Source: Deltaproteobacteria bacterium (GTDB taxonomy: Bacteria; Myxococcota_A; UBA9160; PR03). From it: DNA of 44,062 nucleotides. Below are positions 1,992 to 16,008 of this stretch, piece after piece. The position numbers and the translations under genes are program-made. The stretch's first letter is position 1. Each line of letters begins with the position of its first letter. The notes beneath the pieces are model-generated. The model had not been told where the DNA came from and did not search any database. It worked only from the letters and a program-made list of their open reading frames with translations. The stretch covers positions 1 through 44,062 of the forward strand of contig JAPSFT010000028.1 in NCBI GenBank assembly GCA_035063765.1, in the 5' to 3' direction.

Positions 1992-3350
1992 TCAGGCGGC
2001 CGCGACGGCCGGCAGCGCGGCGGGGGCCGCGCCGAGCGCGGCCAGCGCGGCGCGCGCGGCGGCGTGGCCGCTGCGCACCGCGCCTTCCATCGTGGCCGGC
2101 CAGCCGGTGTCGGTCCACGCGCCGGCCACGAAGACGCGCGGCAGGCCCACGTCGGGCGCGGGCCTCCGGGCGCGCGTGCCCGGCGCCTGCCGGAAGGTGG
2201 CGACACGTTCGGCGGTCACGAAGAAGCGCAGGACGCGCGCGCCGCGCGCCTCCGGCAGGAGCGCCTCGAAGGCCGGCAGGAAGCGGCTGCGCAGCGCGGC
2301 CTGCGAGAGGCCCAGATAGGCCTCGGCCGAGGACAGCGAGACGGCGAGGTACTGGCCGCGCGCGAGCCCGGAGGACGCCGTGCGGTCGAAGATCCACTGG
2401 AGCGGCGAGTCGATCGCGGCCAGCAGCGGCTCGCGCAGCACGGGCCGGTCGAAGACCACGTGCAGGTTCACGATCGGCCCGCGCCCGAGCCCGCGCCAGG
2501 CCTCCGGGTCCGCCTTCGCGCCCGGCGGGAGGAGCGCGGCCGCCTCCTCGTGCGGCACCGCCAGCACCACCGCGTCCCCCTCGAGGCGGGTACCGTGCGA
2601 CACCACCGCGGGTCGGCGCCCGGCGCCGGCGTCGATCGCGTCGACCGGTGCGCGCACGAGCACGCTCGCGCCGGCGGCGCGCAGCGCGCGCTCGGCGGGG
2701 TCGGCGTGGACGGCGCGCAGGGGCGCCAGCGCCCAGCCCACGTCGGCGCCGTCGGCGCGCTCGAGGAAGCCGGTCTGGATCACCTTGGTCGCGAGCGCGA
2801 GCGAGGCCTCGCGGGCCGGGAGGTTCAGGGTCGGCCGCACGAGGAGATCCCAGAAGCGGTCGACGGAGGCCTGCGGCTCGCCCGCCGCGCGCAGCCAGTC
2901 GCCGAAGCGCACGCGGTCGAGAGCCGGGTCGGCGAGGTCGAGCGCGCCGATCCGGCGCGCGGTGCGGGCCGCGCGCAGCCGGTCGGGGAACGCGAGGTGG
3001 TGGAAGCGCAGCAGGCTCGGGGCGAGGTGCGCGGGGCACGGCAGCCGCGCGCTCCGGATCCAGGCCGTCCCGCGCCCGGGCGCCGCCACCGGGACGGCGA
3101 GGCGCGGCTGGAGCGCGACCAGGTGCTCGACGCCGAGCCGCGCGAGGAAGCCGCGGTACGCCGTGCAGCAGCGCAGGAAGACGTGCTGCCCGTTGTCCAC
3201 CTCGAGCTCGCCGCGCCGGGCCGACCAGGTGGCGCCGCCGAGCCGCGGGCGCCCTTCGAGAAGGGTCACGCGCGCGCCCGCGTCGACGCAGTCGAGCGCC
3301 GCGCTCAGGCCCGCGAGCCCGCCGCCCACGACGAGGACGTGGCCCGTCAC
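1992..3350 (-). CDS. hpnE: Hydroxysqualene dehydroxylase HpnE (FAD-dependent)
   Basis: A 452-residue amine-oxidase/phytoene-desaturase-like flavoprotein. The N-terminus carries the dinucleotide-binding G-x-G-x-x-G (VVGGGLAGL), followed by a glutamate ending strand 2 and an R-x-G-G motif. The C-terminus has the typical FAD-closing segment (VFVAGAWTDTGWPATMEGAV). HpnE reductively removes the hydroxyl from hydroxysqualene to give squalene, and this family is diagnostic when it lies beside HpnC and HpnD, as here. The start is GTG 3350, overlapping the hpnC stop by GTGA, so the two are probably translationally coupled. Assignment rests on fold plus context; on sequence alone a carotenoid desaturase would be hard to exclude. 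Confidence 0.9.
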   Translation of the reverse strand: MTGHVLVVGGGLAGLSAALDCVDAGARVTLLEGRPRLGGATWSARRGELEVDNGQHVFLRCCTAYRGFLARLGVEHLVALQPRLAVPVAAPGRGTAWIRSARLPCPAHLAPSLLRFHHLAFPDRLRAARTARRIGALDLADPALDRVRFGDWLRAAGEPQASVDRFWDLLVRPTLNLPAREASLALATKVIQTGFLERADGADVGWALAPLRAVHADPAERALRAAGASVLVRAPVDAIDAGAGRRPAVVSHGTRLEGDAVVLAVPHEEAAALLPPGAKADPEAWRGLGRGPIVNLHVVFDRPVLREPLLAAIDSPLQWIFDRTASSGLARGQYLAVSLSSAEAYLGLSQAALRSRFLPAFEALLPEARGARVLRFFVTAERVATFRQAPGTRARRPAPDVGLPRVFVAGAWTDTGWPATMEGAVRSGHAAARAALAALGAAPAALPAVAAA

Positions 3351-4198
3351 CGGCGGCGCCTGCGTGCGACGAGGGCCAGCGCATGGCGGGCGAGATCGCG
3401 CCGGCGCGGGCGCGGGGCGCCCGCGCTCGGGTCGAAGCCCGCGCGGGCGAGCGCGTCGGCCGTCGCCCGCCCGCCCGCCGCGAAGCCCGCGACGAGCCAG
3501 CGCCCGCTGCCGCGCAGCGAGGCGACGAGCGGCCCGGCCGCCCGCAGGAGCGCGCGCGCCCGCTCGACCTCGAAGGCGACGGCGGCGCGCAGGGCCGGCG
3601 GCGCCGGGCGCCGGACGAGGTCGGCCTCGCCCACCCCGAAGCGGGCGAGATCCTCGGCCGGCAGGTAGACGCGCCCGCGCCCGTGGTCCTCGACCACGTC
3701 CTGGCAGTGCTCGAGGAGCTGGAGCGCCGTGCAGACGTCGCCGGAGAGGGCGATCCGATCCGGTGTCGCCGCGCCAAGCGCGTGCAGCACGAGCTCACCG
3801 ACCGGGGTGGCGGACAGCGTGCAGTAGCCGGCGAGCTCGGCCCAGCTCCCGTAGCGCGCGACGCGCTGGTCGCGGCGATTGGCCTCGAGCAGGCGCCGGA
3901 AGGGCGCGGCGGGCAGGCGCCCGGCGGCGAGCGCCGGCCCGAGCCTCCGCACGAGCGGATGGCGCGCCGCGCCCGCCGGCGCGCGCAGAAGGTCGGCTTC
4001 GAGCTCGTCGAGCAGCGCCAGGCGCTCGCCGGCGCTCGCGGGAGCCTCGTCGCCGGTGTCGTCGGCGAGGCGCGCGAAGCCGTAGATCGCGAGCAGGTCC
4101 TCGCGCAGCGCGCGCGGCAGCCAGCGCGGGGCCACGGGGAAGTTCTCGTGGGCCGAGCGGGCGAGGAGTGCGTCGGGCGCGAAGAGCGGGGTGGTCAC
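3347..4198 (-). CDS. hpnC: Hydroxysqualene synthase HpnC
   Basis: A 283-residue trans-isoprenyl diphosphate synthase of the squalene/phytoene synthase family. Two aspartate-rich Mg-diphosphate motifs are visible: RLADDTGDE near the N-terminus and QDVVEDHGRGRVYLP in the second half. The N-terminal segment (AHENFPVAPRWLP) is the HpnC signature that separates it from HpnD. In the three-enzyme route HpnC converts presqualene diphosphate to hydroxysqualene. The start is GTG 4198, overlapping the tetR stop by GTGA; the longer open frame upstream is shadow sequence over tetR. It lies between tetR and hpnE in the hopanoid operon. Confidence 0.9.
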   Translation of the reverse strand: MTTPLFAPDALLARSAHENFPVAPRWLPRALREDLLAIYGFARLADDTGDEAPASAGERLALLDELEADLLRAPAGAARHPLVRRLGPALAAGRLPAAPFRRLLEANRRDQRVARYGSWAELAGYCTLSATPVGELVLHALGAATPDRIALSGDVCTALQLLEHCQDVVEDHGRGRVYLPAEDLARFGVGEADLVRRPAPPALRAAVAFEVERARALLRAAGPLVASLRGSGRWLVAGFAAGGRATADALARAGFDPSAGAPRPRRRDLARHALALVARRRRR

Positions 4199-4914
4199 GG
4201 CACCCGCCGCGCCGGCGCCGCCGCGCCGAGCGCGCGCTCGACCATCCGGCGCAGGCCCGCCCGGCGCAGGCGCGCGCGATGCGGATCGCCGTCGACCATC
4301 GCGAGCAGCAGGTTGCCGTGCAGCATCGAGATCAGGCCCATCGCGAGCGCCTCGGCGGGCTCGCGGTCGCCGAGCGCCTGGGCGAGCGCGTCGCGCACGT
4401 CGCGCACGAAGTGGTCGTGGAGCGCGAAGAGCGGCTCGCGGATCGAGCCGCGCAGCGCCGGCGACTCGATCACCCAGCGCACGAAGGCCTGGATCGCCGG
4501 GATCTGCTCCTCGACGAAGCGCTCGTAGACCGAGATCAGCTCGACGAGCCGGGTGGCGGGGTCCGCGTGCGTGAGCGTGCGCGCCACTTCCTCCGCGAAC
4601 GGCACCAGCATGCGCCGGAAGGTCTCGCGGAAGAGCGTCTCCTTGTCGCCGAAGTGCCAGAACACGGCCGAGCGCGAGACGCCCGCGCGCGCCGCGATCG
4701 CCGAGATGCTGGCGCCCTCGTAGCCGCGCGCCGCGAAGAGCGCCGCGGCCGCCGCGAGGATGCGCCCCTGGGTGCGCGCCTTGGCGTCGGGCGCGCGCCG
4801 GCCGGAACGCCCGGCGCGCCCGCGGGCGCCTCCGCCGGCGTTCGCCTCGGCCTCCGGACCGCTCGTGCCCGGCGCCCCCCCGCCCGAGCCCGGCGGCTGC
4901 CCCTGCGGCTGCAT
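4195..4914 (-). CDS. TetR/AcrR-family transcriptional regulator inside the hopanoid operon
   Basis: A 239-residue regulator. After a Gly/Pro/Arg-rich disordered N-terminus of about 45 residues comes a clear TetR helix-turn-helix (ISAIAARAGVSRSAVFWHF, then GDKETLFRETF). The rest is helical and would be the ligand-binding and dimerisation domain. The frame is open to 4950, but ATG 4914 is preferred because GGAGGGGAG lies 7-8 bases upstream and it leaves a small gap after idi. It overlaps hpnC by GTGA. Its position between isoprenoid and squalene genes suggests it controls this operon, perhaps sensing an isoprenoid or lipid intermediate; that is inference. A matching palindrome pair is described at 4979 and 8792. 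No ligand can be read from the sequence. Confidence 0.9.
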   Translation of the reverse strand: MQPQGQPPGSGGGAPGTSGPEAEANAGGGARGRAGRSGRRAPDAKARTQGRILAAAAALFAARGYEGASISAIAARAGVSRSAVFWHFGDKETLFRETFRRMLVPFAEEVARTLTHADPATRLVELISVYERFVEEQIPAIQAFVRWVIESPALRGSIREPLFALHDHFVRDVRDALAQALGDREPAEALAMGLISMLHGNLLLAMVDGDPHRARLRRAGLRRMVERALGAAAPARRVP

Positions 4915-4946: not shown

Positions 4947-6047
4947 TCAAATTTCAGGGCTTCCGACACCCTGGCATCGCTGACCGGAAGCCCCCGATCG
5001 GTCAGCGAGCGCGAGCCAGCGCGCGAGCCCGGGACCCAGCACGCGCGGCCCGCTCCGCAGCTCGCCGACCCGCCGCGCCCCGGTCAGGGCCATCACGGCG
5101 CGCAGCCCCTCGGCGAGCTGCGCGGCCGCCTCGAAGACCGCCGCCTCGCCGCCCGCCGCCCACGCCCGCAGGAAGGGCAGCGCGAGGCCGACCGCGCGCG
5201 CGCCGAGCGCGAGCGCGCGCGCCGCGTCGAGGGCGTCGCGCACGCCGCCCGACGCGATCGCGGCGAGGCCCGCGCGCTCCGCGTAGACGAGCGCCGCCGC
5301 CGTGGGCACGCCCCAGTCGCGCAGGAGCTCGCCGAGCGCGCGCTGGCGCGGCGAGCCCCGCAGCGACTCGACCCGCGTCCAGCTCGTGCCGCCGGCGCCC
5401 GCGACGTCCACCCAGCCCACCCCGGCTGCGCGCAGGCGCGCGAGCGTGCGCGGCGCCAGGCCGCAGCCGGTCTCCTTCACGATCACCGGCAGGGGCAGCT
5501 CCTGCACCAGCTCGGCGAGCACCGCGTAGAGGCCGCGGAAGTCGCGGTCGCCCTCGTCCTGCACCAGCTCCTGGGCCACGTTCAGGTGGATGCAGATCGC
5601 GTCGGCGCCGATCGCGCGGGCGAGCTCCGCCACGCGCTCGGGCCCGGCCTCGCGCGCCTGCACGGCGCCCAGGTTCGCGAGCAGCAGCGCGTCGGGCGCG
5701 ACCTCGCGCATCCGGTAGCTCGCCGCGAGCGCGGGATCGAGCAGCATGGCCCGCTGCGAGCCGACGCCGATCCCGAAGCCGTGCTTCTGCGCCGCCGCCG
5801 CGAGCGCCAGGTTCACGGCGCGCGTCTCCGGCGCGCCGCCGGTCATGCCGCTGATCACGAAGGGCGCGAGGAGCTGGCGCCCGAAGAGCTCGACGGAGGA
5901 GTCCACCTCCGTCCAGGCGAGCTCCGGCAGCGCCTCGTGCAGGAGCTCGACCTCGTCGAGGAGCGTCCCGCGCCGGGCCTCGACGTCGGCCTCGATGCAG
6001 AGCTCGAGGTGCTCGAGCTTGCGCCGGCTCACCTCGTTCCCACTCAT
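4947..6047 (-). CDS. fni: Isopentenyl-diphosphate delta-isomerase type 2 (FMN-dependent)
   Basis: A 366-residue FMN/NADPH-dependent type 2 isomerase that interconverts IPP and DMAPP, the two C5 units made by the MEP pathway. Visible hallmarks are the N-terminal R-R-K-x-E-H-L-E-L (RRKLEHLELC), the M-T-G-G loop, GVGSQRAML, HLNVAQELVQDEGD, VKETGCG, and the phosphate-binding stretch SGGVRDALDAARALALGA. Length matches the family. ATG 6047 overlaps the hpnD stop by ATGA. The last codons lie over the 4979-5006 palindrome. In an MEP-pathway organism this isomerase balances the C5 pool ahead of farnesyl diphosphate synthesis. Confidence 0.93.
   Translation of the reverse strand: MSGNEVSRRKLEHLELCIEADVEARRGTLLDEVELLHEALPELAWTEVDSSVELFGRQLLAPFVISGMTGGAPETRAVNLALAAAAQKHGFGIGVGSQRAMLLDPALAASYRMREVAPDALLLANLGAVQAREAGPERVAELARAIGADAICIHLNVAQELVQDEGDRDFRGLYAVLAELVQELPLPVIVKETGCGLAPRTLARLRAAGVGWVDVAGAGGTSWTRVESLRGSPRQRALGELLRDWGVPTAAALVYAERAGLAAIASGGVRDALDAARALALGARAVGLALPFLRAWAAGGEAAVFEAAAQLAEGLRAVMALTGARRVGELRSGPRVLGPGLARWLALADRSGASGQRCQGVGSPEI
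4979..5006. promoter_or_regulatory. Palindrome GCTGACCG-N12-CGGTCAGC, candidate TetR operator upstream of tetR
   Basis: Left half-site 4979-4986 and right half-site 4999-5006 are exact reverse complements. Including one more flanking pair gives 9 bp arms around 12 bases. It overlaps the 3' end of idi and lies about 65 bases upstream of the tetR start. The same half-sites with the same 12-base spacing recur at the operon head (8792-8819). Size and dyad symmetry fit a TetR-family operator, but a hairpin role in the transcript is also possible. Confidence 0.5.
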
Positions 6048-6916
6048 GCGCGGGCTCCGATCCCGAGCCACGCGCGCGCCGCGATCGCGAGCCGGCGCGG
6101 CTTCGACAGGCGCAGGGGGGGGCCGAGGCAGGGGAAGCCCCGGGCGTGGAGCTCGTCGAGGAGCGCCCGGTAGATGCCGCCCATCGCTTGGGCCGGGCGC
6201 AGGGCGCGGCGGTCCTCGGCGGGCAGCAGGCGCGCGGCGGCCTCGTAGCGGATCCGCGCGCGCTCGGCGTAGAGCGCCAGGAGGAGCCGGGTCTCCTCGT
6301 CGAGCTTGCCCGCGCGCAGGCTCTCGGGCGGCACGTGCAGGCGCTCGAGGTCCTCGCGCGCCAGGTAGATCCGGCCGGCGGCCGCGTCCTCGCCGACGTC
6401 GCGCAGCACGTTCGTGAGCTGCACGGCGATCCCCATCTGGCGCGCGTACTCGAGCGAGTCCGGGTTGCGGGCGCCGAGGATCCGCACGAGCAGGAGCCCC
6501 ACCGTCGAGGCCACCCGGTAGCAGTAGCGCTCGAGGTCCGCCCAGGTCGCGATCGGCTCGCCGCGCAGGTCCGACTCGACGCCGCACAGGAGGTCGGCGA
6601 AGACCTCCTGCGGGAGGCGGAAGCGGCGCACGGCGTCGCCGAGCGCGATCCCGACCGGGTGCGTGGCGTCGCCGCGGTAGGCCGCGGCCAGCTCGGCGCG
6701 CCAGCGCTCGAGCAGGCGCTGGCGGTCGCCGCGCACGGCCGGGTCGTCGGCGACGTCGTCGGCGAGCCGGCAGAAGGCGTAGACGGCGTGGAGGGCGCGG
6801 CGCTGCGGGGCCGGCAGCATCCAGAACGCCGCTGCGAAGCTCGAGCCGCTCTCGCGCAGGACCCGCGCGCAGTGCGCGTAGGCGTCGCGCAGCGCGGGGG
6901 CGAGCGGCTCGCTCAC
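6044..6916 (-). CDS. hpnD: Presqualene diphosphate synthase HpnD
   Basis: A 290-residue squalene/phytoene-synthase-family protein, paralogous to hpnC. It condenses two farnesyl diphosphates to presqualene diphosphate. The first Asp-rich motif is FCRLADDVADD and the second is NVLRDVGEDAAAGRIYLA, with the usual YCYRVASTVG segment between them. Conserved substrate-pocket text AMGGIYRALLDEL lies near the C-terminus. The frame extends to 7012, but GTG 6916 is preferred because it overlaps the dxs stop by GTGA and the protein then starts at the conserved domain. With HpnC and HpnE downstream it completes FPP to squalene. A phytoene synthase is possible on sequence alone, but context argues against it. 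Confidence 0.9.
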   Translation of the reverse strand: MSEPLAPALRDAYAHCARVLRESGSSFAAAFWMLPAPQRRALHAVYAFCRLADDVADDPAVRGDRQRLLERWRAELAAAYRGDATHPVGIALGDAVRRFRLPQEVFADLLCGVESDLRGEPIATWADLERYCYRVASTVGLLLVRILGARNPDSLEYARQMGIAVQLTNVLRDVGEDAAAGRIYLAREDLERLHVPPESLRAGKLDEETRLLLALYAERARIRYEAAARLLPAEDRRALRPAQAMGGIYRALLDELHARGFPCLGPPLRLSKPRRLAIAARAWLGIGARA

Positions 6917-8775
6917 CGCCGGGCCCTGCGCCGCGCGGGGCGCGCGCTCTCGGAGAGCGCGGCGCGCGCGGCCGCCGCGATCGCGTCCGCGTCGATCCCG
7001 ACCTCGCGCCACTGCTCGTCCTGCTCGCCGTGCTCCACCACCCGGTCGTCGATGCCGAGCCTCCGCACGCGGGTAGCGGGCGCGCGCGCGGCGAGGAGCT
7101 CGAGCACGGCGCTCCCGAAGCCGCCCGCGAGCACGTGGTCCTCGATCGTGACGACGACGCCGACGCGCTCGGCCAGGTCGGCGAGGAGGGCCTCGTCGAG
7201 CGGCTTCACGAAGCGCGCGTCGGCCACCGCCGCCGAGATGCCCTGCGCCGCCAGGGCCTCCGCGGCCGCGAGGGCGGGGGGGACGGTGCGCCCGAGCGCC
7301 ACGAGCGCGACGTCGGCCCCGTCGCGCAGGAGCTCGCCGCAGCCGATCGGGAGCGGCTTCGGGTCCGGGTCGAGCGCGACGCCGCAGGCCGCGCCGCGCG
7401 GGAAGCGCAGCGCGAAGGGCCGGCCCGAGTCGATCGCGGTCGCGAGCAGGTGCTGGAGCTGGTTCTCGTCGCGCGGGGCCGCCACCACCAGGCCCGGGAT
7501 CGCGCGCAGGTAGGCGAGGTCGAGGACCCCGTGATGGGTCGGGCCGTCGGCGCCCACCAGGCCCGCGCGGTCGAGCGCGAAGGTGACGGGCAGCTCCTGG
7601 AGCGCCACGTCATGCGCGACCTGGTCGAAGGCGCGCTGGAGGAAGCTCGAGTAGATCGCGCACACCGGGCGCAGGCCCTCGGCCGCGAGCCCGGCCGCGA
7701 AGGTGACGGCGTGCTGCTCGGCGATGCCGACGTCGTAGACCCGGTCCGGGAAGCGGCGGGCGAAGCGGTCGAGGCCGGTGCCGTCGGGCATGGCCGCGGT
7801 GATCGCGACCACGCGCGGGTCGCGCGCCGCCACCCGGGCGAGCGCGTCGGCGAAGCACGCGGTCCAGGTGGGAGGCGCGGCCGCGGCCGCGCGCCGCGCC
7901 CCGCTCGCGCGCTCGAAGGGGGCGGTGGCGTGCCACGCGAAGGGATCCGCCTCGGCCGGCGCGAAGCCGCGGCCCTTGCGGGTGCGCACGTGCAGCACGG
8001 CCGGCCCGGATGCGGCCCGCAGCGCCGCCAGCGCGTCGAGGAGTGCCTCCAGCTCGTGGCCATCGACGGGTCCCCGGTACGCGAGCCCCAGCGCCTCGAC
8101 GTAGCCGCGCACGTCGCCGCTGCGCGAGAGCCCGCCCACGTTCGGCGCGATCGACATGCCGTTGTCGTTGAAGACCACGCGCAGGGCGGGGGCGGCGCCC
8201 TGCCGGGCCAGCTCGCCGGCGTGGTTGAGCGCCTCGAAGGCCATCCCGGCCGTAGCGCCGCCGTCGCCGATCACGGCCACCGCGCAGGCCGGCTCGCCGC
8301 GCCGGCGCAGCGCCTCGGCGATGCCGAGCGCGGCCGACAGCGAGGTGCCGGCGTGGCCGGCGCCGAAGGCGTCGAAGGGGCTCTCGCTGCGGCGCAGGAA
8401 GCCGCTCGGGCCGTCGGCGCGCCGGATGCGCGGCAGCGCGCCGAGACGCCCGGTCAGGGCCTTGTGGCCGTAGGCCTGGTGGCCCACGTCCCACACGAGC
8501 CGGTCGCGCGGCGTGTCGAAGACCGCGTGCAGCGCCACGCTCAGCTCGACCACCCCGAGGCTGCCCGCGAAGTGCCCGCCCTGGGTCGCGCCGAGCTCGA
8601 TCAGCGCCTCGCGCAGCTCCTCGACGAGGCGCGGCAGCACCGCGCGCGGAAGCCGGCGCACGTCCGCGGGCTCGCGGATCGCGGCGAGCACGGGAACGGA
8701 GCTCGCGGACCTCGTCTTCAGGGACGTCGGCACCTCTTCACCCACCGGTGCGGAGGGTTGCGCGGCTCGCCGCAC
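6913..8775 (-). CDS. dxs: 1-deoxy-D-xylulose-5-phosphate synthase
   Basis: A 620-residue thiamine-diphosphate enzyme condensing pyruvate with glyceraldehyde 3-phosphate, the first and rate-limiting step of the MEP pathway. Seen in order: GGHFAGSLGVVEL, WDVGHQAYGHKALTGR, the ThDP/Mg motif GDGGATAGMAFEAL with downstream FNDNGMSIAPNVGGLS, the transketolase pyrimidine domain (DVGIAEQHAVTFAAGLA) and a C-terminal transketolase domain. Start GTG 8775 is used; a shorter start is possible because the first ~18 residues are poorly constrained. A TA-containing box (minus-strand TAGGCG, 8784-8789) ends 8 bases before this GTG, and the 28 bp palindrome lies immediately upstream, so the head of the operon looks regulated there. 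Confidence 0.95.
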   Translation of the reverse strand: MRRAAQPSAPVGEEVPTSLKTRSASSVPVLAAIREPADVRRLPRAVLPRLVEELREALIELGATQGGHFAGSLGVVELSVALHAVFDTPRDRLVWDVGHQAYGHKALTGRLGALPRIRRADGPSGFLRRSESPFDAFGAGHAGTSLSAALGIAEALRRRGEPACAVAVIGDGGATAGMAFEALNHAGELARQGAAPALRVVFNDNGMSIAPNVGGLSRSGDVRGYVEALGLAYRGPVDGHELEALLDALAALRAASGPAVLHVRTRKGRGFAPAEADPFAWHATAPFERASGARRAAAAAPPTWTACFADALARVAARDPRVVAITAAMPDGTGLDRFARRFPDRVYDVGIAEQHAVTFAAGLAAEGLRPVCAIYSSFLQRAFDQVAHDVALQELPVTFALDRAGLVGADGPTHHGVLDLAYLRAIPGLVVAAPRDENQLQHLLATAIDSGRPFALRFPRGAACGVALDPDPKPLPIGCGELLRDGADVALVALGRTVPPALAAAEALAAQGISAAVADARFVKPLDEALLADLAERVGVVVTIEDHVLAGGFGSAVLELLAARAPATRVRRLGIDDRVVEHGEQDEQWREVGIDADAIAAAARAALSESARPARRRARR

Positions 8776-8791
8776 CGCGGCAACGCCTATC

Positions 8792-8819
8792 GCTGACCGC
8801 GAGCCGCCTCGCGGTCAGC
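8792..8819. promoter_or_regulatory. Perfect 12 bp-arm palindrome at the head of the dxs/hopanoid operon
   Basis: Arms 8792-8803 and 8808-8819 are exact reverse complements around a 4-base centre. The outer half-sites GCTGACCG and CGGTCAGC have the same 28-base total span as the 4979-5006 site. No gene ends here: dxs and the enolase-superfamily gene diverge from this gap, which argues against a terminator. It abuts the likely dxs -10 region, a good place for repression. The most likely regulator is the TetR protein of the operon. Confidence 0.55.
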
Positions 8820-8898: not shown

Positions 8899-10116
8899 AT
8901 GACCCGGCCCCCGCGTCCCACCGTCGAGCGCCTCGAGCTGTGGGCGCTCCACGTTCCCTTCCGCGCGGCCGTGCGCGAGACGATGGCCCGGAGCGAGGGT
9001 GGGCTCGGGATGGCGATCCCGGCCGAGGAGCCCTGGAGCGGCGGCGACTTCGTGCTGGCGCGGCTCACCGCCGAGGACGGCTCGAGCGGCATCGGGGAGG
9101 CCTTCGTGTGGCTGCCGGAGACGGGCGTCTCCCCGGCCCAGGTGATCGACGCGATCGAGCACGGTCTCGCCCGCTACGTGCTCGGCGCGGATCCCTTCGC
9201 CGCTGCGGCGCTGCGCACGCGCCTGGACGCCAACGTCGCGCGCAGCGAGGTGGCGAAGGGGCTCCTCGACCTCGCCTGCCACGACCTCATGGGGCGCATC
9301 GCGGGGCGGCCGCTCTGGGAGCTGCTCGCGGCGCGTGCGGGCGAGGGCGAGGGCGAGCCGCCGCCGCGCCCCGCTCCGGAGCCGCTGCCGCTCGCCGCGC
9401 TGATCCCGCTCGTGGACCCCCGCGCGATGGCCGACCTCGCCCTCCGCTTCCAGCGCGGCGGCACGCGGAGCTTCCGCCTGAAGCTCGGCCGCGGCGTCGA
9501 GGCCGACCGCCGGATCGTGGCCGCCGTGCGCGAGGCGCTCGGCGACGAGGCGCGCCTGCGCGTCGACTACAACCAGGCCTACACGCCCGGGGAGGCGGTG
9601 CGCGCGATCGCCGCGATCGCGCCCTTCGGGATCGACTGCGCCGAGCAGCCCGTGCGCGCCGACGACTGGCCCGGCATGGCGCACGTCCAGCGCGCGGTCG
9701 CGGTGCCGCTCCTCGCGCACGAGAGCTGCTTCTCGCTGGTCGACGCGATCGCGCTGCTCGAGCTCGGGGCGGTCGGCGTGCTCGGCGTCAACAGCGAGCG
9801 GCCCGGCGGGATCACGCACGCGCTGCGCGCCATCGACCACTATGCTGCCCGCGGGCTCGGCACGGTCCTGCACAACCAGCCGCTCGGGATCGCCTCGGCC
9901 GCCCAGGTGCACCTCGGCGCCGCGCGCACCGGCGTGCTCGGGCACGCGATGGAGCTCTTCGGCCACGTGATGCTCGAGGACGACCTGATCGTCGCTCCGC
10001 TCGACTACGCGGGCGGGCGCGTGCGCGTGCCCGAGGGCCCGGGCCTCGGCGTGACCCTCGACCTGGACGCGCTCGACCGCTACGCGCTCGCCGCCCCGGT
10101 GGTGCTCGCACGATGA
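8899..10116 (+). CDS. Enolase-superfamily protein (mandelate racemase/muconate lactonizing type)
   Basis: A 405-residue protein with the capping domain (about 1-140) and the (beta/alpha)7-beta barrel of this superfamily. Metal ligands appear as D223 (RVDYNQ), E249 (CAEQPV) and E275 (AHES). The catalytic positions look unusual. The K-x-K motif at the end of strand 2 reads R193-L-K195. The position usually Lys (MLE group) or Asp (MR group) before the GG turn appears as N298 (GVNSERPGG). H325 (LHNQPLG) may be a strand-7 base. The substrate is unknown; dipeptide epimerase or sugar-acid dehydratase would be guesses. It starts the plus-strand set with the amidohydrolase (ATGA overlap) and a GNAT protein. 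Confidence 0.85.
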   Translation: MTRPPRPTVERLELWALHVPFRAAVRETMARSEGGLGMAIPAEEPWSGGDFVLARLTAEDGSSGIGEAFVWLPETGVSPAQVIDAIEHGLARYVLGADPFAAAALRTRLDANVARSEVAKGLLDLACHDLMGRIAGRPLWELLAARAGEGEGEPPPRPAPEPLPLAALIPLVDPRAMADLALRFQRGGTRSFRLKLGRGVEADRRIVAAVREALGDEARLRVDYNQAYTPGEAVRAIAAIAPFGIDCAEQPVRADDWPGMAHVQRAVAVPLLAHESCFSLVDAIALLELGAVGVLGVNSERPGGITHALRAIDHYAARGLGTVLHNQPLGIASAAQVHLGAARTGVLGHAMELFGHVMLEDDLIVAPLDYAGGRVRVPEGPGLGVTLDLDALDRYALAAPVVLAR

Positions 10117-12221: not shown

Positions 12222-12898
12222 GGGCGGCGCAGGCGCCGGCGGCCGAGCATGACGAGGGCCAGGAGCGCGGCTCCGTGGCGCAGGGCGCTCGCGGGCTCGG
12301 GCACCAGCGTCACGCCGTACGTCCTCGACGGTTGATCGACGGCGCCCGCGAGCCCGAAGACATCCCCCTCGCCGAGGACCAGCACGACCTCGATGCCTTC
12401 CTCGGGCAGCGTCCCGACCTCGAAGGAGAGGCGGTCGAGCACGTACACGCCGCCCGCGAGGCCCGGGCCGGGCGTGAGGCTGGCGGCGTTGACGTTGCGC
12501 AGCTCGGTGCCGCCCAGGTGACCTCCCATCGCGCCCTTCCCCGCCACCGTGTACGGGCCGAAGAGATCCGGCACGAGCGGCGGCGTCGCGCTCTCGACGC
12601 GAACGAGCGTGAGCTCGGTGATCTCGCCGCCCGTCCAGTCGACCCCGTACACGTAGCCCTCGAGGCTGGCGCCCAAGGTGTCGAGCACGACCTCCAGCTC
12701 GACGACCCCCTGCGGCGCCGTCGCGAGCACGCTCGGCGCGCCGACCACGAAGGAGCCGGCGGGACGCAGCGTGAGCGAGGGCCCGACAAACGGGAGCCCG
12801 ATGATCACGATCCCCGCCTGCGCCGGCGTCGCGAACGACGCCAGGCATGCGACGGCCACCGCCCCGAGAAGGCGTCGCGCTCGCGCCCGGACGCTCAC
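12194..12898 (-). CDS. Secreted protein with PEP-CTERM-like tail
   Basis: A 234-residue protein with a Sec signal (RRLLGAVAVACLASFATPAQAG), a beta-rich middle and a C-terminal VPEP-hydrophobic-RRR tail (VPEPASALRH, then ALLALVMLGRRRLRR). This is the tripartite sorting signal handled by exosortase-type systems. The middle resembles cohesin-like or adhesin-like exported domains only vaguely. The start is GTG 12898, overlapping the TSP3-protein stop by GTGA, so the two are coupled. The 3' end overlaps the convergent GNAT gene by 28 bases. No exosortase gene is in the window. Function unknown; probably surface or extracellular. Confidence 0.75.
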   Translation of the reverse strand: MSVRARARRLLGAVAVACLASFATPAQAGIVIIGLPFVGPSLTLRPAGSFVVGAPSVLATAPQGVVELEVVLDTLGASLEGYVYGVDWTGGEITELTLVRVESATPPLVPDLFGPYTVAGKGAMGGHLGGTELRNVNAASLTPGPGLAGGVYVLDRLSFEVGTLPEEGIEVVLVLGEGDVFGLAGAVDQPSRTYGVTLVPEPASALRHGAALLALVMLGRRRLRRPQPSRVDCS

Positions 12899-15800
12899 GG
12901 CGCCGCTCCCGGGCCGGGCGCCTGGCCGAGGCGCGGCCGGAAGCCCAGGAAGAAGTCGACGGCGTCGACCACGCCATCCTCGTTCGCGTCCGCGAGCGAG
13001 CACCCGTCGGCCGCCGGTCCGGCCGTCATGCACGGCCGGAACCAGCCGTGAAAGTCGGATGTGCCCACCACCCCGTCGTTGTCGAAGTCCGCATCGCAGA
13101 CGTCGCCGTACTGCTGCGTCCCTTCGAGTGAGCCGTCGTCGTCGGCTCCAGCGTCGCGATCCGCCTGGTCGGGATTCGCGACCTCGCGGCAGTTGTCGCA
13201 GGCGTCGCCGACCCCGTCGCCGTCGGTGTCGGCCGGGTCGGGATCGGCGGCGGCGGGGCAGCCATCACACGCGTCCCCGCGCCCGTCGCCGTCCCCGTCC
13301 TCCTGGAACGGGTTGGCGCGAAGCGGGCAGTTGTCCTCCTCCCCCGGCCAGCCATCGTGATCGGGGTCCGCCGGCTGGCAGGCGTCGCCCACGCCATCCC
13401 CGTTCAGGTCGGACTGGTCGCGATTCGGGCTGAAGGAGCAGTTGTCGAGATCGTCGATCACGCCATCGCCGTCCCAGTCGTGCTCGCAGGCGTCGCCGGT
13501 GCCATCGCCGTCGGCGTCGGCCTGACTCGGGTTGAAGCGCAGCGGGCAGTTGTCGTCCTGGTCGACGACGCCGTCGCGATCGGTGTCGGGCGGCTCGCAG
13601 GCGTCGCCGATGCCGTCATCGTCCAGATCCATCTGGTCCGGGTTCCATTGCGAGGGACAGTTGTCGAGGTCGTCGATCACCCAGTCCCCGTCCGTGTCGC
13701 CCTCGCACTCGTCGCCGGTGCCGTCGGCGTTCGAGTCGACCTGGCTCGGGTTGTAGGCGAACGGGCAGTTGTCCTCGCCGTTCGGGACGCCGTCGAGGTC
13801 GCGATCCGGCGGTGTGCAGGCATCGCCGAGCCCGTCGCCGTCCTCGTCGGCCTGGTCGGCGTTGGAAACCAGCAGGCAGTTGTCGTGGTCGTTGGGCACC
13901 CCGTCGCCGTCCCAGTCCGGCTCGCAGGCGTCCCCCACGCCGTCGCGGTCGGTGTCCGCCTGGTCCGGATTCGGAACCTCGACGCAGTTGTCGTCGGCAT
14001 CCCCCACGCCGTCGCCATCCGCGTCCGGCGGCTCACAGGCATCGCCGGTGCCGTCGCCGTCCGTGTCTGCCTGGTCCGGATTCGGATCGGTCGGGCAGTT
14101 GTCCAGAAGGTTCGGCCAGCCATCGCGGTCGGCATCCGAGGGCTGGCACGCGTCGCCGATCCCGTCCCCGCTCACGTCGGCCTGGTCGGGGTTGGCGGCG
14201 CTCGGGCAGTTGTCGTCGTCGTCGGGGACCCCGTCCTCGTCGAGGTCGTCGTCGCCCGGGCCCTTGACCCAGAAGCGCGGCGCCCCGTCCAGCATCGTGA
14301 CGATCAGCAGCTCGTCATCGAGGGCGAACACCCGCAGCGGTGCACCCAGCGCGAGGACGTCTCCCGCGAGGTTGTAGCTCGCGTCCCAGCCCTGGACGCG
14401 CGTCAGCTCCTCGAACGCGTGCAGGGTGAAGAGCTGGCCGTTCAACCAGGCGGCGTCCAGCAGATCGCTCGAGAGCGTGTCCTCCTGGGCGAGGTCGATG
14501 GGATCCATCACCCAGCCCGTACCGAGCACGACGGCGGATCCATCCGGCGCGACACGGATCGGGGCGCGCGGAGCCTGGGAGGAGAAGTACACTTCCTTCC
14601 GATCGCCAAAGGCGCCGGTGGACTCGATCTGCTGCCAAGCGAAGTCGCCGTACACGTCCAGGAAGTACACGCGCTGGTTCACGGCGTTCCAGACGAGCTC
14701 GCCGGCGGCGAGGTCCCAGACGTCCTTCTGGGCGATCCGCTGGCCGTCGGGTCCATAGCTGTAGAGCGAGCCCGGGAACCCGCCGGGATCGCACACGACG
14801 AGGAACGCGCCCGCCGCCACGAGGCCGCACGGTTGCCGCGAGACCGTCACGAACGATCGCTCGGGGCCGAGCGGAGCGAGCCCGATCCTCGTGATCCGCC
14901 CCGTCGCTTGGGCGAGATAGAGGGCGTCGTTCTCGCCCGAGTAGGCCATCGATCGCGGCGCCTCGACGAGCGGGATGCTCTCGAGGTAGCGCTGCTCCGC
15001 CAGCGACCAGCGAAAGATGCTCAGGTGCTGGCGACTCAGCAGGTAGACGATCCCGTCGTCGCCGAGCAGCAGCTGGTCGGGCACGTAGGGAAGCCCCGTC
15101 GGGTCGACCGGCTCGCCCGGCTCGAGCGGTGCGATCTCCGCCACGGACACGACCTCGACGCCGATCCCGGCCGCCTCGGGCGTGAAGGCGAACACCGAGT
15201 CCCCGTACACCGCGATGCTCCGCGGCACCGTGTCCAGGGCGAGCCGGCCTGCCTCGAGCAGGGCATTCGAATAGCCGTAGAGCGTGCCGCCACGGAGCAC
15301 GATCGGGAGATCGACCAGGAAGTCGACGTCGTCGAAAGCCCCACCGAGGCTCGCCGCGTAGGCGAGGTCGCTCGCGTGGTAGACGATGCCGGAATCGTCC
15401 AAGACGCGCCCGCCGCCTGCCAGCACCCAAACGTCGCTCGCGTGCGGGTAGTCGCCGTGGTACGGGCTGTCGTGCTGCTCTCCGAGCGAACCGTCGTCCC
15501 CGTATGCGAACGAGAGGATGTCGGAGGGGCTCGTACCCTGGCTGCGCGCAAAGATCCGATTGGCTTCTCGACTCACCGCGAGGCGGCCCACGCCATACCA
15601 CGAATCCCTGCTGTCGAGCCGGTTGCCGCTCGACTTGTCGACGCTGATCAGCGCCTCCCCGACGGCGAGGAAGAGCAGGTTTCCGTCGGTCGCAAGGTCG
15701 TGGATCGTCTGGGTCGTGTTCTCGAGCGGGAGCTCGGTCGTGGCCTCGAAGTCGAGGCGTGAGACGCGCCGGTCGAAGGCGACGAAGAGGCCGTCGTCGT

Positions 15801-16008
15801 CGACGGTGAAGGCCGTGGGGACGTCGGAGAGCTGCAAGGGCGGAAGCCAGCCCCGCGCGTCCAGGTCGTAGCGCCGGATCGTGCCGTCGCCGTAGGCGAA
15901 ATAGACGATGCCGCCATGCTCGCGTTTCACGAGCCACGCCGGGCCTTCGACGCAGCTCGGGCCGACACACAGAAGAATGAGCATGCACAGGAGGACGATG
16001 CGACGCAT
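12895..16008 (-). CDS. Large secreted beta-propeller protein with 11 thrombospondin type 3 repeats
   Basis: A 1037-residue exported protein. An N-terminal hydrophobic signal ends near a possible lipidation cysteine (VGPSC, weak lipobox). Residues about 30-580 are repeating beta-sheet text (DLATDGNLLFLAVG, SMAYSGENDALYLA) typical of a propeller. From about 584 to 960 there are 11 Ca-binding TSP3 units of the form DNCP-x-NPDQADTDGDG-x-GDAC, spaced 30-35 residues apart. A C-terminal pair of EF-hand/dockerin-like loops follows (DADFDNDGVVGTSDF, DANEDGVVDAVDFF). It probably acts outside the cell in calcium-stabilised adhesion or envelope structure. Third codon positions in the first half look more A/T-rich than in neighbouring genes. 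It is coupled to the downstream PEP-CTERM-like gene. Start ATG 16008 has only a weak ribosome site. Confidence 0.88.
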   Translation of the reverse strand: MRRIVLLCMLILLCVGPSCVEGPAWLVKREHGGIVYFAYGDGTIRRYDLDARGWLPPLQLSDVPTAFTVDDDGLFVAFDRRVSRLDFEATTELPLENTTQTIHDLATDGNLLFLAVGEALISVDKSSGNRLDSRDSWYGVGRLAVSREANRIFARSQGTSPSDILSFAYGDDGSLGEQHDSPYHGDYPHASDVWVLAGGGRVLDDSGIVYHASDLAYAASLGGAFDDVDFLVDLPIVLRGGTLYGYSNALLEAGRLALDTVPRSIAVYGDSVFAFTPEAAGIGVEVVSVAEIAPLEPGEPVDPTGLPYVPDQLLLGDDGIVYLLSRQHLSIFRWSLAEQRYLESIPLVEAPRSMAYSGENDALYLAQATGRITRIGLAPLGPERSFVTVSRQPCGLVAAGAFLVVCDPGGFPGSLYSYGPDGQRIAQKDVWDLAAGELVWNAVNQRVYFLDVYGDFAWQQIESTGAFGDRKEVYFSSQAPRAPIRVAPDGSAVVLGTGWVMDPIDLAQEDTLSSDLLDAAWLNGQLFTLHAFEELTRVQGWDASYNLAGDVLALGAPLRVFALDDELLIVTMLDGAPRFWVKGPGDDDLDEDGVPDDDDNCPSAANPDQADVSGDGIGDACQPSDADRDGWPNLLDNCPTDPNPDQADTDGDGTGDACEPPDADGDGVGDADDNCVEVPNPDQADTDRDGVGDACEPDWDGDGVPNDHDNCLLVSNADQADEDGDGLGDACTPPDRDLDGVPNGEDNCPFAYNPSQVDSNADGTGDECEGDTDGDWVIDDLDNCPSQWNPDQMDLDDDGIGDACEPPDTDRDGVVDQDDNCPLRFNPSQADADGDGTGDACEHDWDGDGVIDDLDNCSFSPNRDQSDLNGDGVGDACQPADPDHDGWPGEEDNCPLRANPFQEDGDGDGRGDACDGCPAAADPDPADTDGDGVGDACDNCREVANPDQADRDAGADDDGSLEGTQQYGDVCDADFDNDGVVGTSDFHGWFRPCMTAGPAADGCSLADANEDGVVDAVDFFLGFRPRLGQAPGPGAAP

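Follow-up and report, generated by a model that had tools for sequence, protein, structure and literature searches.

Operator-like dyads precede a dxs-led hopanoid operon, and often its internal TetR gene, in a Myxococcota order

Few molecular fossils are used as much as hopanes, and to our knowledge the way in which a bacterium decides to make hopanoids, the sterol-like lipids of bacteria, is largely undescribed. In the alphaproteobacteria, hpnP is under EcfG general-stress control. TetR proteins are mostly repressors, and the local repressors of the TetR/AcrR class (AcrR, TtgR, SmeT and QacR) have a long pseudo-palindromic operator near their own gene and their target operon, whilst FasR and PfmR belong to a lipid-metabolism context. 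HpnR, despite the form of its name, is a ring-A (C-3) methylation protein and not a regulator (PMC12583986). In the open-access literature, which was the scope of our search, we came across no regulator dedicated to a hopanoid synthesis operon. A first-pass annotation of the locus described here was not aware of a described link between one such repressor, MEP entry, the isomerase and squalene/hopene synthesis.

The window, the whole stretch of DNA that was analyzed (44,062 nucleotides), carries on its minus strand a run of seven genes in the order dxs-hpnD-idi2-tetR-hpnC-hpnE-shc. These encode a second, shortened 1-deoxyxylulose-5-phosphate synthase (dxs, 6913–8775; TIGR00204, 696 bits), presqualene diphosphate synthase (hpnD, 6044–6916; TIGR03465), type 2 isopentenyl-diphosphate isomerase (idi2, 4947–6047; TIGR02151), a 239-aa TetR/AcrR-type regulator (tetR, 4195–4914), squalene synthase HpnC (hpnC, 3347–4216; TIGR03464), hydroxysqualene dehydroxylase (hpnE, 1992–3350; TIGR03467) and squalene-hopene cyclase (shc, 77–1960; TIGR01507), the start of the last at 1960 being taken from its conserved N-terminus. 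NCBIfam equivalogs were used for HpnC, HpnD, HpnE, SHC, DXS and IDI2, and all scored above their cut-offs. Neighboring genes overlap by 4 nt at dxs/hpnD, hpnD/idi2 and hpnC/hpnE and by about 22 nt at tetR/hpnC; these overlaps argue for a single transcript, which may have a second start at the downstream of the two dyads described below (O2). Elsewhere in the window, a 1037-aa ORF (12895–16008, minus strand) reads in translation as having a lipoprotein-like start, many D-x-D-x-DG-type (thrombospondin type 3-like) repeats and a dockerin-like C-terminus.

Two dyads of the pattern GCTGACCG-N12-CGGTCAGC occur at this operon, at 4979–5006 and 8792–8819, each an exact match with no mismatches. Their coordinates, number, half-sites and spacing were as first annotated, and there was no third copy in the window or the genome. 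The operator-like dyad at the operon head (O1, 8792–8819) has the full 12-bp arms that had been reported for it (GCTGACCGCGAG/CTCGCGGTCAGC) and ends 17 nt upstream of 8775, the earliest start that dxs could have. The second (O2, 4979–5006), whose arms extend outward to 10 bp (TCGCTGACCG/CGGTCAGCGA), sits at the 3′ end of idi2, in the final ~60 coding nt before the stop at 4947, and the tetR ATG (4914) follows 65 bp further on. Its equivalent is intergenic in several relatives, and lies between idi2 and tetR in L059 and L061. The dyads had been described as framing tetR; as both are 5′ of that gene (O1 before dxs, O2 before tetR), they instead lie ahead of the operon and of tetR. A divergent gene of the enolase superfamily at 8899 was not supported as a conserved target, as it lies ~1 kb away from the dyad in G001.

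Allowing up to three mismatches, the window held six matches to the dyad, against 1.69 ± 1.38 in shuffled sequence. Across the whole 4.4 Mb genome there were two exact matches, both in the window, and none to a reversed-pattern control; no place matched at one mismatch, and at two mismatches there were 13 other places, about as many as for the control (12). The motif is thus not abundant, where occurrence in the hundreds had been named beforehand as the result that would count against a regulatory role. With the only two exact matches in the genome found 3.8 kb apart at one operon, O1 and O2 are not chance occurrences. Nothing at 0–1 mismatch beyond O1 and O2 indicated a wider regulon in the source genome. 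A scan for sigma-70-like promoters near both sites gave no match, and no terminator-like site was found at either.

Orthologs of tetR were sought in 118 relatives and the flanking DNA was read. In most of the relatives that carry hpn genes the orthologs keep the same operon order, and dxs-hpnD-idi2-tetR-hpnC-hpnE-shc was found in several families belonging to a single order of uncultured Myxococcota, and also in one genome from another family of the class. The operon has tetR at the same place in families f1, f4, f5, f7, f11 and f12 and in locus L125, with a differing gene order in family f8. Strong relatives of the TetR itself, sought in 379 genomes drawn evenly from the phylum, were confined to that order apart from a single genome that belongs to another family of the class. 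The exact N12 dyad was present in 15 of the 118 relatives (10 of 25 hpnD-positive and 5 of 93 hpnD-negative genomes) and the reversed control pattern in three. The expectation that related genomes would carry the dyad upstream of hpn/dxs operons with an internal tetR was borne out across families, and relatives that retain the operon and tetR retain the dyad as well, rather than lacking it. The exact dyads of the hpnD-negative genomes (G010, G024, G048, G077 and G117; for example at G024:C218:5044, G048:C420:1451 and G117:C110:37901) may be chance, given the three genomes with the reversed control.

The collected sites gave the consensus RCTGACCGAW-N7/8-WTCGGTCAGY, in which the gap between the CTGACCG and CGGTCAG cores is N12 at 17 of 25 sites and N11 at the remaining eight. 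A half-site model trained solely on exact sites from other families (leave-family-out) gave the top rank, in most operon loci, to a site preceding dxs or tetR. Over all hopanoid loci, 22 of the 23 sites scoring 15 or above fell within the 4.3% of sequence that precedes dxs, tetR or the head of the f8 operon (its MlaA/carotenoid-synthase end), and the 23rd was upstream of hpnD in G029, an exception in which the hopanoid operon has no dxs and the dyad precedes hpnD. The site upstream of dxs was first or second in its locus in nearly every operon for which that upstream sequence was available, and an operon-head site (upstream of dxs or of the first gene) was present in nearly all available operons, being degenerate in L062 and L149. 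Three loci examined after the motif had been fixed scored 21.4 (operon dxs of G005), 23.7 (operon dxs of G036) and 26.5 (L125); L151 and L152 carry the dyad too, but were found by pattern. Since several loci from the same family do not count as independent cases, the fair count is agreement at the level of families (f1, f4, f5, f7, f11, f12 and L125).

Of 21 operons, about 13 had a recognizable tetR-proximal site (exact, or scoring at least 10), and it was not seen in about 8, or ~40% (L055, L063, L064, L066, L069, L072, L076 and L125). The earlier proposal that the dyads are operators is supported in part: the element is conserved and operator-like upstream of the dxs-led operon and, in many genomes, of tetR. 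The sites themselves, with their uniqueness and conserved position, are seen directly in the sequence, and so are their linkage to tetR and two copies of dxs. Judging from these features, we consider it likely that the dyads are operators of the operon-encoded TetR, which would repress the hopanoid operon, with its dedicated dxs, and often its own gene, and would respond to a ligand.

The 239-aa regulator has an N-terminal TetR-type helix-turn-helix (PF00440, TetR_N; 65.9 bits against a cut-off of 24), and its AlphaFold2 model (nine helices, mean pLDDT 83.6) shows the all-helical TetR fold, with the divergent C-terminal ligand domain of that family. Foldseek matches of the model were TetR proteins, the closest solved structures including FasR, Rv0078, EthR2 and PfmR at about 21–27% identity, whilst the best sequence-profile matches included TtgR, NalD and AcrR. 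Against the FasR NCBIfam equivalog the regulator scored 41 bits, with a cut-off of 330, a likeness in fold only. A plasmid search for the TetR gave no match.

The dyads could alternatively serve as operators for another regulator, encoded outside the operon, with tetR in the operon by happenstance. In favor of this, the source genome has many other TetR-like proteins (73 first-look candidates), and the tetR-proximal site is absent from some operons. We nevertheless think this unlikely, as the presence of the dyad follows the tetR-containing operon across families, and in G071, whose tetR relative is encoded away from the supply operon, a strong dyad accompanies that gene. Also against it is a variant in G076 common to both sites, with an altered half-site type (GACCG to GACG, and CGGTC to MGTC), which coincides with a changed recognition helix: the G076 TetR is the only one of 19 aligned to have Pro for Arg at the start of this helix. 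G040 has Thr at the same position, yet a canonical site, so the covariation of operator and helix, being one case, is only suggestive.

Perfect inverted repeats can form hairpins and O1 is close to a translation start, so that the palindromes might act in RNA, as a leader hairpin, an attenuator or a processing site. We regard this as highly improbable, and an RNA element was ruled out as a candidate. At the six best-conserved pairs, none of the 25 sites showed a compensatory change; the letters are conserved in both arms whilst inner pairs break freely, which is not the covariation of a stem. There was also no Rfam match or terminator-like site, and the gap is variable in length. That the repeats are a by-product of chance or of coding constraint in a GC-rich genome is barely credible, for although O2 lies in coding sequence and the window is GC-rich, the exact sites have no counterpart in the control, the same element is intergenic in L059 and L061, and both the clustering of strong leave-family-out sites and the later-examined loci contradict it.

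The source genome has a full-length housekeeping dxs at C9:32979 (815 bits), and the operon DXS is without ~48 model positions (~185–233) that are present in this copy. Across a set of 41 genomes, the hopanoid operon came with the shortened dxs as an additional copy (G029 being the exception), whilst genomes lacking the operon had one dxs, full-length; copies were fragmented in a few draft genomes, and G012 shows the operon type only. The operon DXS forms a distinct, shortened lineage tied to hopanoid operons. No dyad was found upstream of housekeeping dxs genes, where nothing scored above 7, or, in the source genome, near hpnH (contig C42). The first-pass annotation had the circuit controlling MEP entry, and a dxs-led operon is indeed preceded by the dyad; this dxs is, however, a second copy, and, given the dyad-free housekeeping gene elsewhere, control of the essential entry step was rejected. 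Given a shortened second copy in the operon and a housekeeping dxs without a dyad, the circuit probably tunes an extra, dedicated MEP supply for hopanoids and not MEP entry as a whole.

For the operon-encoded TetR acting at these dyads, we infer regulator binding, repression, autoregulation, a second promoter and a ligand. A TetR dimer, or a pair of dimers, would bind O1 and block transcription of the operon from dxs through to shc. In many genomes it would bind O2 too, controlling a second start before tetR, through which the regulator would be autoregulated and the downstream unit set separately. DNA binding would be altered by a hydrophobic ligand, which might be an intermediate of the pathway or another lipid, and the dedicated second dxs would add hopanoid MEP flux on top of the housekeeping supply. 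The half-site centers are 18–19 bp apart, about twice the span usual for a single TetR-type dimer, and two dimers per dyad, as in QacR, would fit this spacing. The variation between N11 and N12 gaps is unusual for a rigid TetR dimer and counts against the explanation, as do the operons in which the tetR-proximal site is unrecognizable, the negative sigma-70 promoter scan and the f8 arrangement described below.

In G071 a fused squalene epoxidase-oxidosqualene cyclase gene replaces shc, and the supply genes dxs, hpnD, idi2, hpnC and hpnE follow. A related tetR lies apart from these, with an exact dyad ~55 bp upstream (L075:9607-14507), and is neighbored by ERG4/ERG24, SdmB-like and SdmA-like genes (the SdmA and SdmB models were matched below their cut-offs). 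The dyads before the fused cyclase are weak, at 9.9 in G071 and 8.5 in G073, scores that are reached in about 1 in 20 windows. As the G071 regulator falls in a paralog clade of the tree, it is an extension of the family and not an ortholog. Single ORFs of about 1120–1190 aa with squalene epoxidase and oxidosqualene cyclase domains (L147:3937-7296 and L096:1069-4632) look like fusions of the enzymes for two successive sterol steps; they occur in two of the order's genomes.

In family f8 (L065, L073 and L074) the dyad is located in the promoter region from which an MlaA lipoprotein gene and a PF04240 carotenoid-biosynthesis-like gene diverge, and hpnH is part of the hopanoid locus nearby. In L073, tetR is separated from the dyad by a reversed hpnG-like gene. 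Paralogous TetRs (L077-L103, about 34–43% identical) come mostly from f5, are mostly without a dyad and form a separate clade, adjoining conserved acyl-CoA dehydrogenase, SDR, MsrA and AMP-ligase genes.

A broader reading, which we put forward tentatively, is that a triterpenoid-sensing TetR family in one Myxococcota order and close kin might feedback-control the second dxs together with squalene/hopene synthesis, related members using the same operator in sterol clusters. Such a family would be a counterpart in function, not by homology, of sterol-sensing feedback. If true, the TetR circuit would provide a concrete regulator with its operators, a testable link between MEP supply, through the second dxs, and triterpenoid output, and a natural comparison of hopanoid-making with sterol-making relatives.

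With AcrR, TtgR, SmeT and QacR the regulator has in common the TetR_N domain and the all-helical fold. It differs from them in adjoining lipid biosynthesis genes, where theirs are efflux pumps, and the half-site RCTGACCG is unlike the AcrR and TtgR operators that we know of; whole-protein similarity to solved structures is low, at about 13–27% identity. The lipid-linked FasR, PfmR and EthR2 are among its best fold matches in the PDB, and the pathway here is, in contrast to theirs, that of triterpenoids. The likeness to EcfG is in the transcriptional control of hopanoid genes, but EcfG is a sigma factor and acts on hopanoid methylation, whereas the TetR described here would act on the synthesis operon. 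The proposed hopanoid circuit would be of the local TetR type, with an unusual set of targets.
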